Below are positions 24,073 through 28,032 of a DNA stretch of 64,000 nt, piece after piece. The DNA comes from an uncultured Pseudomonadota bacterium (GTDB lineage Bacteria > Pseudomonadota > Alphaproteobacteria > RF32 > CAG-239), in contig CASFJS010000002.1 in the NCBI GenBank assembly GCA_949295085.1, forward strand, positions 1-64,000, given 5' to 3'. The translations under genes and the position numbers were made by a program. The notes under the pieces were generated by a model. It saw nothing but the letters and a program-made list of their open reading frames with translations, was not told the origin of the DNA and searched no databases. Every line of letters starts with the position of its first letter. Positions within the stretch are counted from its first letter, which is position 1.

Positions 24073-24612
24073 TTATCTTCTTTCAACAAATATTGAATAA
24101 CTGTTGCGCGACATATAGTACTCGGCCAACTGTAAAACACCAAACATCACGGCATACAATCCCGTCACCGTCGAAATCGTTATCGCCCCGACCATCGGAT
24201 AAGCCAAAATAATCAGGCCGAAGATTAAGCCGATAATTCCCATAATTGCCGACCACCCCCACGGCAAACCGTATTTCTTAATCTCAAAAGCACCAATAAG
24301 CTGAACAACGCCAACCGTCAGACACCACAACGCCAGAATCACCGGCAAACTGGCCGCGGTTACCCCGAGATTAAACAACAAAATAAGCCCGACCAGCAAG
24401 TCCAGCACCCCGACTAATAAATACCATCCGGATCTGATACCGGCAAATGCCATGATATAAAATAAGCCGGCCAACATAAAACCAATGCCGATATATGCCG
24501 CCAAAGCCAACATTGTCCCGAACGGATTAAACCAGATAAAAAGCCCCAAAACCAACATCACGATGCCGGCGACCAAATTCCAGCGAGCATTTTTTAATTT
24601 GACTGCAAACAT
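24073..24612 (-). CDS. HdeD-like membrane protein (DUF308)
   Basis: A 179-residue inner-membrane protein with about six hydrophobic helices arranged in repeated pairs, including GIVMLVLGLFIWFNP, VGVLDLLVGLILLFN and GIIGLIFGLIILAYP. This internally repeated pattern is typical of the DUF308/HdeD acid-resistance family; the molecular role is unknown. The ATG at 24612 is chosen for its AGGAG and the more usual N-terminus, rather than an upstream start at 24648. It follows nhaA by 58 bases on the same strand, so joint expression in ion or acid stress is plausible. Confidence 0.8.
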   Translation of the reverse strand: MFAVKLKNARWNLVAGIVMLVLGLFIWFNPFGTMLALAAYIGIGFMLAGLFYIMAFAGIRSGWYLLVGVLDLLVGLILLFNLGVTAASLPVILALWCLTVGVVQLIGAFEIKKYGLPWGWSAIMGIIGLIFGLIILAYPMVGAITISTVTGLYAVMFGVLQLAEYYMSRNSYSIFVERR

Positions 24613-24670
24613 AGCTTTTTCTCCTTGATAACAACCTCTGAGAATCATATAGGCATTATCAGGATCAATT

Positions 24671-25870
24671 TCAAATGCGCATTTTATGTTTGGGCCGTGT
24701 CAGATGATGAATATGCTCGCCAAATCCGAAAATCAATATTCCCCATAAAGCCGACAACAGAGAACCGCACAAAATACCCAGCCGTATTTCTTCCTGCATG
24801 GCACCCGGCAGCGACAATTTACCGACAAACAAAGCCATCGTAAAGCCAATACCGGCAATCGTCGCCACACCATATAAATCAACCGGCCGCACTTCTTTCG
24901 GAAAATTGGCAATTCCGGCCCGGATTAACAGCCAGGTCGTTAAAAATATACCGATTTGTTTGCCGAAAAACAAACCGCAAATAATACCCAGCGTCAAAGT
25001 ATGGGTGAATGTTTCGCCGGTCACGTTTCCGAGATACAACCCTGCCGAGGCAAAAGCAAACACCGGCAAAATAACAATATCAACCCAGGGCTTAAGCTTA
25101 TGACTCAATCTTTCAAGCGGCGAATACTTTTTGATATTAACCCGCATCGGATAAGCCATTGCCACCACCACGCCGGCAATAGTGGTATGAATACCGCCGT
25201 TTAAAAAGCAATACCACAACCCGACACCGCAAATCAGATACGGCACAAAGCTCGTAACCTCCATTTTGTTTAAGAAATACAGAGCAAAACAAATTATTCC
25301 GGCATAACCGAGCAAATCGACCGAAACACCTTGATTATAAAACAAAGCGATAATGACAATGGCTCCGAGATCGTCAAAAATGGCAATCGCCAGCAAAAAT
25401 ATCTTAATTGCCTGCGGCACGGCGCGACCGACCAACATCAGCACACATATGGCAAACGCGATATCCGTTGCCGTCGGAATGGCCCAGCCGTTCATATACT
25501 GCGGAGCATGCCGGTTAAGCAAAGCATAAATAATCGCCGGACAAACAATTCCGCCCAAAGCAGCCAGTGCCGGCACCAAAATTTGCTTGCGTTCGGCCAA
25601 AAACCCCTCTTTCATCTCACGTTTAAGTTCAAAGCCGACCTGCAGAAAAAAGAACACCATCAACACATCGTTAATCCACCACTCCAACGGACGGGCAAAC
25701 TTTATATCGGCCACACCGACAAACAAACTGGTCTCAAAAAAATGAGCCACCGGCTCGCGCCAGGGACTATTGGCCAACAAAATTGAGGCCGTCATGGCTG
25801 CAATCATCAAAACACCGCTGCTCATATCATTGGCGGCAAATTTTTCAAACCATTCACGTATCCGCAACAT
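24671..25870 (-). CDS. nhaA: Na+/H+ antiporter NhaA
   Basis: Exports sodium in exchange for protons. The 399 residues, with ATG at 25870 behind AAGGA, span the usual twelve helices. The family landmarks are visible: NDVLMVFFFLQVGFELKRE, the unwound-helix motif IPTATDIAFAI with the sensing region, and AIAIFDDLGAIVIIALFY, which carries the two adjacent Asp residues of the ion-binding site. An upstream extension to 25897 is unlikely. It probably leads a two-gene unit with the HdeD-like gene. Confidence 0.96.
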   Translation of the reverse strand: MLRIREWFEKFAANDMSSGVLMIAAMTASILLANSPWREPVAHFFETSLFVGVADIKFARPLEWWINDVLMVFFFLQVGFELKREMKEGFLAERKQILVPALAALGGIVCPAIIYALLNRHAPQYMNGWAIPTATDIAFAICVLMLVGRAVPQAIKIFLLAIAIFDDLGAIVIIALFYNQGVSVDLLGYAGIICFALYFLNKMEVTSFVPYLICGVGLWYCFLNGGIHTTIAGVVVAMAYPMRVNIKKYSPLERLSHKLKPWVDIVILPVFAFASAGLYLGNVTGETFTHTLTLGIICGLFFGKQIGIFLTTWLLIRAGIANFPKEVRPVDLYGVATIAGIGFTMALFVGKLSLPGAMQEEIRLGILCGSLLSALWGILIFGFGEHIHHLTRPKHKMRI

Positions 25871-25931
25871 CTTTTTTCCTTCTTTAATACACGGCAAGGG
25901 CTATTTTAACCGCCGACCTCTTAAAATTTAA

Positions 25932-25959
25932 TAAAAAAAGCCGCCTTTTAAAGACGGCT
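25932..25959 (-). terminator. Terminator of the small-secreted-protein gene (stress module)
   Basis: AGCCGCC (25939-25945) pairs with GACGGCT (25953-25959, one G-T pair). On the minus strand the hairpin is followed by seven T. Confidence 0.8.
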
Positions 25960-25978
25960 CGCATTATCTGTGTAAAAC

Positions 25979-26293
25979 TCAGTCAATATAAATAATTTTT
26001 TCGGAAGCATGTTCAACACATTTCTGGATAATTTTGCCTGTTTTACGCGAAATAACGGTATAACACTCACCCTCCGGTTCAACCACATAAATTCGTGGCC
26101 GGGTATGATGTCGATGACCGTCATCCATCATTTCCCGTGCCAGCATGACCCCTGCCGTTGTTCCGATAACCCCGGCAGCAATATCCGCGGCATAATACCC
26201 GGCATCAAAATGGTGACGGCGATGATGCCAACCGGCAAAAGCCGACGTACCACACAGCAATGTAACCAGCAAAATCACAACAAAACGTTTCAT
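25979..26293 (-). CDS. Small exported protein with His-rich and glycine-zipper-like region
   Basis: A 104-residue product with a 20-residue signal peptide (KRFVVILLVTLLCGTSAFA), a His/Arg cluster (WHHRRHHF), a small-residue helix AADIAAGVIGTTAGVMLA and a mixed C-terminal domain with two Cys (GECYTVISRKTGKIIQKCVEH). The family is not recognised. A good ribosome-binding site (AAGGAG) precedes the ATG. It lies 25 bases behind the Spy-like gene and is likely the last gene of the ECF-sigma operon. The His-rich part could bind metal, which would suit that context. Confidence 0.75.
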   Translation of the reverse strand: MKRFVVILLVTLLCGTSAFAGWHHRRHHFDAGYYAADIAAGVIGTTAGVMLAREMMDDGHRHHTRPRIYVVEPEGECYTVISRKTGKIIQKCVEHASEKIIYID

Positions 26294-26318
26294 GCTTTTT
26301 CTCCTTAATTATCCGGAG

Positions 26319-26792
26319 CTATTCCGGCAGCTTATCCTCCAAAGCCGGCGGTGGCGGAAGCTCATCATCGGGCTCGGGCTTCGGCCCCGGACGATGATGT
26401 TTTCCGGGTTTTGGTCCTTTAGGCCCCGGGCGCATTCCCGGCCGCGGTTTCTTATGCTTTTTCATTTCATCAAAAGCCTTTTTTTGCTCCGGTGTCAAGA
26501 TTTTTTCAAATTCCTCCATGTTGGCTTTCCGCACTTCATCCATTTGTTTACGCAGTTCTTTTTGTTCTTCAATCAACGGTTTCATCTTGGCGCGACCATC
26601 CTCACGGATTTTATCGGCTTGCTCGCGCTGTTCTTCAGTCAGGTTAAGCTTGTCAGCCAAGGGTTTGCGCATTCTCATTTCGGCTTTCGGCCGCCCGGCT
26701 TCCGGCACCGGCGGCAAAGGTTCGGCATTGGCATTCAAAATACCGCCGCCAATAAAACTGACACCGACGGCAACTAACAACCATTTTTTCAT
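26319..26792 (-). CDS. Spy/CpxP-like periplasmic LTXXQ protein
   Basis: A 157-residue exported protein with a signal peptide ending ANA (about residue 23). The helical part carries two LTXXQ-type motifs, LTEEQ (51-55) and LTPEQ (99-103), as in the Spy/CpxP/ZraP/CnrX group of periplasmic chaperones and metal sensors. The C-terminal 45 residues are Pro/Gly/Lys/His-rich and probably disordered. The start codon directly follows the stop of the ECF sigma gene (TAAATG), so the two are translationally linked. It may be a sensor or an output of the sigma factor. Confidence 0.8.
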   Translation of the reverse strand: MKKWLLVAVGVSFIGGGILNANAEPLPPVPEAGRPKAEMRMRKPLADKLNLTEEQREQADKIREDGRAKMKPLIEEQKELRKQMDEVRKANMEEFEKILTPEQKKAFDEMKKHKKPRPGMRPGPKGPKPGKHHRPGPKPEPDDELPPPPALEDKLPE

Positions 26793-27290
26793 TTAATCTT
26801 CTCCTTGTAAAAATTTAAGTTTTTCCGCCAAAATTTTGCGAGCATTAAAGAGACGTGATTTTATGGTTCCTTCCGGCTCGCCGAGTTTTTTGGCTATTTG
26901 TTCAATTGTCAGGTCTTCAAATTCAAACAAAACAATCACTTTACGCATTTTGGCCGGCAAAGCGTCGACCGCTCGCAAAATAATTTTTTGTCTTTTTTTG
27001 GCATCGACAACACGTTCCTGTGACGGTGCCACCGAACGGCTGTTCAGCACTTCTTCATCGGTTATTTCGCTTTGTGCCTGTTTGTAACTGGCCGATTTGA
27101 AATAATCCCGACAAACATTCGCGGCAATTGTGGCAATCCAGGCGCCAAACCGGCCGCTTTCATCATATTTTGGCAGATTGCGCCAGGTTTTTATATAAAC
27201 TTCCTGTTCAATATCTTCATTATACGAACCGGTAATTTTTTTAATAACCGCGCGCACCAGGCCCTTGTTTTGTTCGATAATTTCTTTCAT
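26793..27290 (-). CDS. ECF-type RNA polymerase sigma factor
   Basis: A 165-residue alternative sigma factor. Region 2 spans about 10-75 (DIEQEVYIKTWRNLPKYDE, FGAWIATIAANVCRDYFK) and region 4 about 110-160 (ALPAKMRKVIVLFEFEDLTIEQIAKKLG, EGTIKSRLFNARK). The start ATG overlaps the stop of the small membrane protein by one base (TGATG), and the Spy-like gene follows without a gap. It probably drives its own operon, held inactive by the membrane protein. ECF group assignment cannot be made by eye. Confidence 0.93.
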   Translation of the reverse strand: MKEIIEQNKGLVRAVIKKITGSYNEDIEQEVYIKTWRNLPKYDESGRFGAWIATIAANVCRDYFKSASYKQAQSEITDEEVLNSRSVAPSQERVVDAKKRQKIILRAVDALPAKMRKVIVLFEFEDLTIEQIAKKLGEPEGTIKSRLFNARKILAEKLKFLQGED

Positions 27291-27541
27291 CAGCTCACCA
27301 AAAGCAAACCGTAATCATCCACCGGCAACCCCAAATTTTCAACATAAGTCTCACTTTCGGTTCCGGCATACCCCAAATCCCAGTAAACAAGACCTTCCGT
27401 CGACTGTTTCTGCGGCAAAAAGGCAATAACAAACATCGCACAAGTCAACATAACAACACCGGCCTTAATCCGGTTGTGACGTTTTTTTCGTGCCAGATAT
27501 AAAGGTTTGGCTTCTTTCAGCAATTCGGAAATATCTTGCAT
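27290..27541 (-). CDS. Small single-pass membrane protein, putative anti-sigma factor
   Basis: An 83-residue protein: a charged cytoplasmic N-terminus (about 1-26, with RKKRH), one transmembrane helix (about 27-43, AGVVMLTCAMFVIAFLP) and about 40 residues outside. The ATG at 27541 has a near-perfect AAGGAGG. It is the first gene of the ECF/Spy operon and is coupled to the sigma gene by a one-base overlap. This topology and position are those of small anti-sigma factors such as CnrY; sequence similarity was not checked, so the role is inferred. Confidence 0.7.
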   Translation of the reverse strand: MQDISELLKEAKPLYLARKKRHNRIKAGVVMLTCAMFVIAFLPQKQSTEGLVYWDLGYAGTESETYVENLGLPVDDYGLLLVS

Positions 27542-27621
27542 TGTTCCTCCTTTCATACTGCTTAAAACGATGGTAAGACAACAAAGGTTCATTTTTAATT
27601 AAAAAAAATTTTAAAATTACG

Positions 27622-27671: not shown

Positions 27672-27745
27672 TGCGCTATCGTCTAATGGTAGGACAGCGG
27701 ACTCTGACTCCGTTAATCGTGGTTCGAATCCATGTAGCGCAGCCA
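27672..27745 (+). tRNA. tRNA-Gln (CTG anticodon)
   Basis: A complete cloverleaf: acceptor TGCGCTA/TAGCGCA, D-arm, anticodon loop CTCTGAC giving CTG, T-loop TTCGAAT and an encoded CCA. It closely resembles bacterial tRNA-Gln. A terminator follows directly. Confidence 0.95.
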
Positions 27746-27749
27746 ACAA

Positions 27750-27777
27750 AAAAGCCACCCTAGGGTGGCTTTTTTTG
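27750..27777 (+). terminator. tRNA-Gln terminator
   Basis: The palindrome AGCCACCCTAGGGTGGCT (27753-27770), extended by A and T pairs, is followed by seven T. Confidence 0.85.
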
Positions 27778-27840
27778 TTGGCTGTCTGTATCGGCCGAGA
27801 ACCGCGATCCGTGGTTCGGATTCTCACCGCCGTAATTCAT
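27777..27840 (+). repeat. Direct repeat behind tRNA-Gln, copy 1
   Basis: A 64-bp sequence identical to the one at 27969-28032. Its end forms, with following bases, a 9-bp hairpin CTCACCGCC/GGCGGTGAG (27822-27848) that copy 2 lacks. Between the copies lies a GC-rich stretch and a piece matching the 3' end of the tRNA. Confidence 0.9.
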
Positions 27841-27896
27841 GGCGGTGAGAACGCGTCAGCCCCGTTAGGGGTGCGCCGTGGCCTCGCCGCGCGCAC

Positions 27897-27911
27897 AATC
27901 CATGTAGCGCT
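27897..27911 (+). repeat. tRNA-Gln 3' end fragment
   Basis: AATCCATGTAGCGC repeats the T-arm and acceptor 3' strand of the tRNA-Gln gene upstream (27727-27740). It is followed by a degenerate copy of the terminator region (CCACC...GGATGGCTTTTTT) and then by repeat copy 2, which shows that the whole tRNA tail plus downstream segment was duplicated and decayed. Confidence 0.75.
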
Positions 27912-27968
27912 CCTTTTTCTTTCCGGACAACGTCTGTAAAATTTTTTCCACCTCAGGATGGCTTTTTT

Positions 27969-28032
27969 GTTGGCTGTCTGTATCGGCCGAGAACCGCGAT
28001 CCGTGGTTCGGATTCTCACCGCCGTAATTCAT
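27969..28032 (+). repeat. Direct repeat behind tRNA-Gln, copy 2
   Basis: Identical over 64 bp to 27777-27840, preceded in both copies by GGCT and a run of T. It ends 5 bases from the stop codon of the leftward coiled-coil gene. Perfect identity implies a recent duplication or gene conversion. Confidence 0.9.

Follow-up and report, generated by a model that had tools for sequence, protein, structure and literature searches.

A conserved module of an ECF sigma factor, a small membrane protein and a Spy-like exported protein in uncultured gut Alphaproteobacteria: a putative autoregulated envelope-stress switch

What holds a small ECF sigma factor in check, and what does it switch on when released? 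The question is raised by four leftward genes at positions 27541–25979 of the window (the whole 64,000-nucleotide stretch of DNA that was analysed), which encode a small membrane protein (here called Y), the sigma factor, an LTXXQ protein and a His-rich protein, and which a first-pass annotation had likened to the Cnr metal-resistance regulators. The layout and tight spacing described there are borne out by the coordinates (Table 1), and the operon-like grouping of an ECF sigma factor with a small membrane protein and an LTXXQ/Spy-like exported protein is supported by the comparisons below. The host genome comprises 1.47 Mb in 37 contigs, with completeness rated at 100%. Terminator-like sites number 7 in the region, as compared with 3.2 in shuffled sequence. 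Beyond the module (24073–25897) lie genes for an NhaA antiporter and for a DUF308 protein of the HdeD type. Among 80 related loci, 18 have an HdeD-like match in the neighbourhood of the module, its order and strand differing between loci, and 10 have NhaA. Upstream, a tRNA-Gln gene lies on the opposite strand (27672–27745), and a stretch of about 70 bases beginning GGCGGTGAGAATCCGAACCACGGATCG was seen by eye in two copies between this gene and the next (27760–28020).

Table 1. Positions of the module genes and their predicted regulatory elements in the window
Feature	Position	Strand	Remarks
Y, single-pass membrane protein, 83 aa	27290..27541	-	ATG preceded by AGGAGG
ECF sigma factor, 165 aa	26793..27290	-	one base in common with the Y stop codon
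LTXXQ/Spy-like exported protein, 157 aa, with Pro/Gly/His-rich tail	26319..26792	-	ATG directly at the sigma stop codon
His-rich exported protein (predicted), 104 aa	25979..26293	-	fourth gene; two Cys conserved in six orthologs
Terminator-like hairpin 3′ of the His-rich gene	25938..25960	-	consensus match only
ECF-type autoregulatory promoter (predicted), TGAACC-N16-CGTTT (17 nt from GAAC to CGTT)	27565..27591	-	upstream of Y

For the sigma factor, Pfam Sigma70_r2 and r4_2 and TIGR02937 all score over their cut-offs, and the protein consists of regions 2 and 4 only, as expected of an ECF factor. Among solved sequences E. coli sigma-E is the closest, ahead of CnrH, which aligns at 97.5% probability, as ECF factors do. 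Four Sigma70_r2 hits were recovered from the genome, of which the window sigma is the only one of ECF size; the other three lie in frames of 299, 342, and 706 aa.

Two overlapping sets of loci show how constant the arrangement is. Y precedes sigma in 57 of the 58 loci analysed in the first set (the window counted once), the exception, L037, being a locus that begins close to sigma. The LTXXQ gene mostly stands immediately 3′ of sigma in this set; among divergent loci, the third gene follows sigma by 17–79 nt in L057, L058, L065, and L072, and no LTXXQ gene was seen 3′ of sigma in L073. The second set was collected by scanning with EAKPLYx[AKQ]RK; alignment of Y gave 99 loci among 102 candidate stretches, and the best 80 of the 99 were kept. 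Because this motif served both as scan pattern and as script filter, the constancy of EAKPLY in the second set is partly by construction. Y adjoins sigma in 78 of these 80 loci, with a spacing of −8 to +8 nt (looked at from −10 to +12 nt only); of the other two, L286 ends early, and L284, in which the sigma frame starts further away, holds Y and the LTXXQ protein with no promoter match upstream. A complete third gene is present in 74 of the 78 loci, −8 to +3 nt from the sigma stop codon (in L283, one of the remaining four, the LTXXQ start runs into masked bases); every one of the 74 encodes an LTxxQ-type motif, and 72 encode two. The fourth gene is less constantly linked: in tblastn, the copy in the window found a match in 17 of 80 loci. 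Many of the loci, for the promoter as for the module, come from close relatives and are not independent. Judged from sequence, Y, sigma, and the LTXXQ protein are a conserved module.

A search with a single Y sequence found the protein in 19 of 39 genomes, its own included, all within the genus, while the window sigma as query matched 103 of 153 genomes of the order, in 16 of 17 genera, leaving 50 genomes without a match. A class-wide draw returned matches in 9 of 385 genomes, four of which belong to three other families; these four loci carry Y, sigma, and promoter with an exported protein behind, which in one of them is truncated where the locus stops. Four records labelled as Gastranaerophilales (three) or Cyanobacteria (one) also have Y and sigma together with the LTXXQ protein and the promoter. 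In the sigma tree, where the midpoint root is for drawing only and the branch to CnrH is very long, the four sigmas from these records form one clade (support 100/100); this clade attaches to five sequences from gut alphaproteobacteria (fork 90/84), within the alphaproteobacterial set. The module probably reached a Gastranaerophilales-type lineage by transfer, a history that the tree fits without proving; it would mean that gut bacteria of different phyla have exchanged a sigma switch together with its promoter. One further record, titled Lactobacillaceae (L230), holds an alphaproteobacterial module on an 829-kb contig and is probably a mislabelled bin.

The first-pass annotation also proposed looking for a shared promoter motif upstream of position 27541 and elsewhere; an ECF-type motif does recur, before Y, before macA-type genes, and before genes for small exported proteins. 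GAAC and CGTT boxes stand upstream of Y in 57/57 loci of the first set (51 with N17, 6 with N16) and in 78/78 of the second, overlapping set (68 with 17 nt between the boxes, 10 with 16), while shuffling the bases of every upstream stretch of the first set 200 times never produced TGAAC-N17-CGTT. Since the boxes precede Y in all 78 loci, the sigma operon is likely autoregulated from a GAAC-type promoter. The window's own genome contains the strict pattern twice, one of them inside an ORF of the other strand (C28:7949), a match that was dropped as chance. A relaxed pattern, RAACYTT-N13-TCGTTW, also has two sites there, one upstream of Y and one upstream of a gene for a MacA-like lipoprotein (C34:1766). 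Pattern counts fell below those of the reversed-pattern control both in this genome (2 vs. 4; 13 vs. 22) and genus-wide (119 vs. 158; 72 vs. 93); as raw counts do not exceed the control, it is position and conservation alone that support the targets. Many loci have an antisense match to the promoter pattern within the sigma gene, where its conserved codons probably make such a match inevitable.

The best-supported candidate targets match MacA first, with the general RND-adaptor model TIGR01730 also over its cut-off. For the group termed macA1, GAAC-N17-CGTT lies within 190 nt upstream in 7/7 loci and within 110 nt in 3/7; four of the seven sites were already known as pattern hits, and the remaining three are independent. 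For macA2, [AG]AAC-N16/17-CGTT lies 52–72 nt before the start in 17/23 loci (L162 and L166 included) and is absent in 6/23. Among control ORFs, the same element was found in 15/608 within 190 nt (6 with GAAC-N17) and in 10/624 within 110 nt, one of the ten being a macA2 locus (L162 or L166); these control rates err on the high side, because several of the other hits come from loci picked for the pattern. The gene at C34:1766 is followed by one for a MacB-like ATPase, both models scoring below their curated cut-offs, and in the one macA2 locus whose neighbour was checked, that of the window's own genome, the next gene encodes an ABC ATPase. Inspection covered 20 of the 119 pattern hits, 20 of the 72, and three further loci; the majority of hits lay inside ORFs and were discarded as targets. 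Three kinds of small exported proteins stand behind intergenic elements: orthologs of the His-rich protein, located elsewhere and with their own GAAC/CGTT-type element (L121, L122, L124); a 133-aa exported repeat protein (L120, L172, L207, L209); and a His-rich small lipoprotein (L180, L218). Other intergenic elements precede genes for a GIY-YIG protein (L123), a 269-aa protein (L213), and a 119-aa protein (L137); in L136 the element precedes a 238-aa protein whose start is very near the site, and in L182 a tRNA-synthetase-like start. The promoter stretch of the 133-aa NSLG-repeat protein (L120:1001, L172:221, L207:221, L209) is near-identical to that of the unrelated GIY-YIG gene, as if promoter and gene had been shuffled. 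Taken by position and conservation, the module probably switches on its own genes together with exporter genes.

We consider it somewhat more probable than otherwise that the locus is an autoregulated envelope-stress module, made up of an ECF sigma factor, a minimal class-II-like anti-sigma factor (Y), and a Spy-like partner. The Spy-like protein of the operon would keep watch on the periplasmic tail of Y, which ends in GLPxD[DE][YF]GLL; once that protein is engaged with misfolded clients, or altered by a ligand, Y would let go of sigma or be destroyed. The freed sigma would then read GAAC-N16/17-CGTT promoters and raise expression of its own operon, of the MacA-like exporters, and of the small exported proteins, until the extra Y and Spy-like protein shut it off again. 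The gene module, the promoter, the autoregulation, and the candidate targets in this account are supported by comparison of sequences; we infer the anti-sigma role of Y, the contact between its tail and the Spy-like protein, and the signal. As the candidate targets are exporters and exported proteins, envelope stress would be the likeliest signal. A more specific version, in which a soluble Spy/CpxP-type chaperone reads the state of folding through a GLPxD[YF]GLL anti-sigma tail in a horizontally transferable minimal ECF switch, is a good deal less probable; if true, the similar tail of CnrY would point to a shared contact, with Spy-fold partners controlling class II anti-sigma factors.

The third protein matches PF07813 (E = 5e-10; 40.4 bits against a cut-off of 24.3), and the profile of its family matches Spy (E = 1.9e-6), though the NCBIfam Spy equivalog model scores far below cut-off (31 of 174 bits). 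CnrX is absent among the 16 matches listed for that profile, and direct comparison with CnrX by hhalign gave a probability of 0.2, no homology. A structural model (pLDDT 79, pTM 0.46) has a long helix at residues 53–98 and short helices at 45–48 and 101–113; Foldseek returned no match to it in the PDB, and this absence was set aside as no evidence for a new fold. The three divergent loci L058, L065, and L072 encode a third protein that starts with a hydrophobic stretch and, by eye, has no obvious cleavage site, and that looks anchored like CnrX. In CnrX itself the metal site is built of His-based ligands. Were the locus a metal module of the Cnr or SigAb kind, periplasmic Cu, Zn, or Ni would free sigma on binding to the third protein or to partners rich in His, and several features lend themselves to this account, which we nevertheless think unlikely: in an alignment of 43 LTXXQ sequences, one His column in the tail is occupied in 23 and Met is found in 27–33 at five positions of the long helix; both the product of the fourth gene and the small lipoprotein found as a candidate target are rich in His, so that metals can be entertained as a signal; and SigAb, which is paired with a small anti-sigma factor, is described as copper-responsive in the available part of PMC12153292. 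Against it, His and Cys stay below 40% of the 43 sequences in every column of the LTXXQ fold (a Cys in 25 of 43 lies in the signal peptide), the closest solved relative of the third protein among the matches listed is Spy rather than CnrX, and MacA-like exporter genes and small exported proteins make up the candidate targets. The proposal of a Cnr-type metal module accordingly found no support.

Y has one hydrophobic stretch, its best 19 residues being 25–43 by hydropathy only, and neither Y nor the His-rich protein has a Pfam match over cut-off. Its consensus runs from MxDIxxLLxEAKPLYxxRK at the N-terminus to GLPxDxYGLLxV in the tail; 88 of 89 distinct Y sequences could be placed on an A-[KR]-P motif, and all 88 have I/L/V at position 4, L/I at 7 and 8, and Pro13. 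An AlphaFold2 read-through model of Y and sigma (pTM 0.40, no contact data) shows recognisable sigma2 and sigma4 folds and places Y helices at 4–10 and 12–41. The likeness to CnrY suggested by the first-pass annotation persists only as weak residue patterns at both ends of the protein, while profile comparison finds nothing (hhalign probability 0.6, no homology; no NCBIfam match for Y). The best CnrY window for the N-terminal profile of Y starts exactly at residue 1 (CnrY 1–13; shuffle P 0.0015), and 0.6% of 1034 other N-termini reach that score; the CnrY tail, SPFGLLIGK, is matched or beaten against the Y tail profile by 9 of 1590 control C-termini, one of them from a CnrY relative. These tests were chosen post hoc, and the CnrY-like N-terminus and [YF]GLL tail are suggestive only. 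According to the part of PMC7406223 at hand, the first helix of CnrY binds sigma4 and the second sigma2. Y is probably a minimal class-II-like anti-sigma factor that holds sigma inactive.

The tail, [YFCM]G[LF][LYV] within the last 12 residues of 80 of the 89 distinct Y sequences, would also suit an arrangement in which Y is sensor and anti-sigma factor in one, its tail being the site at which a protease cleaves or a ligand binds, with the Spy-like protein merely an envelope-protecting product, just as the other candidate targets are exported proteins. We hold this to be improbable: the Spy-like gene is third in all complete loci, as against the sporadic fourth gene, and in Cnr, zinc selection yields mutants in which either cnrY or cnrX is inactivated (PMC4803752, in the portion available), so that loss of cnrX is selected like loss of cnrY. 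This makes a co-inhibitor role for the Spy-like protein plausible. That Y is no anti-sigma factor at all, being an unrelated small membrane protein beside a sigma controlled otherwise, would accord with the absence of detectable homology to named anti-sigma factors and with the low-scoring model of Y and sigma, and is very improbable given the close coupling of Y and sigma in records of two phyla and the CnrY-like N-terminus.

The hosts are uncultured gut alphaproteobacteria with small genomes, and as the only ECF-sized sigma factor in the genome examined, the window sigma may direct its main envelope-stress response. With 89 distinct natural variants of Y, a clear promoter, and candidate targets in hand, the anti-sigma function and the contact between the Y tail and the Spy-like protein are directly testable.

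Among the literature matches listed, judged by title and opening of the abstract, no description of a Y-sigma-LTXXQ module was found. The nearest known arrangement is CnrYXH of Cupriavidus metallidurans pMOL28, which likewise joins a small single-pass protein, an ECF sigma factor, and a periplasmic sensor, has its own sigma-dependent promoter before Y, and encodes a Y with ends of similar residue pattern. The resemblance to Cnr holds for the architecture; membership of Y and the third protein in the Cnr families was dropped after the hhalign and profile searches, and the gene order differs, being Y-X-H in Cnr and Y-H-X in the window. CnrX moreover has a hydrophobic N-terminal stretch, and the RND pump genes cnrCBA follow in Cnr and not in the window. 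As far as the available text of PMC4598750 goes, CnrX responds to Co and Ni, and a conformational switch linking it to CnrY is only thought to occur. SigAb-AabA-AabB of Acinetobacter baumannii, compared here by description rather than by sequence, is likewise a single autoregulated operon that unites an ECF sigma factor, a small one-pass anti-sigma factor, and another partner, in the order sigma-AabA-AabB and with a response to copper; in the accessible part of that description (PMC12153292), AabA has 107 aa and inhibits SigAb with modelled CnrY-like binding, and AabB, which is not called Spy-like there, also lowers SigAb activity. Spy and CpxP share with the LTXXQ protein the LTxxQ motifs, the export, and the helical character; the model of the latter shows one long helix with short ones, and CpxP, as the portion of PMC2912261 at hand describes it, acts on a two-component system, whereas the partner of the LTXXQ protein is an ECF operon. 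The RpoE-RseA-RseB and EcfG-NepR systems follow the same ECF logic, the window sigma being nearest to E. coli sigma-E among solved structures; they differ in the inhibitor, since RseA, in the description available, is a larger class I protein of 217 aa. NepR is soluble, unlike the membrane-spanning Y.
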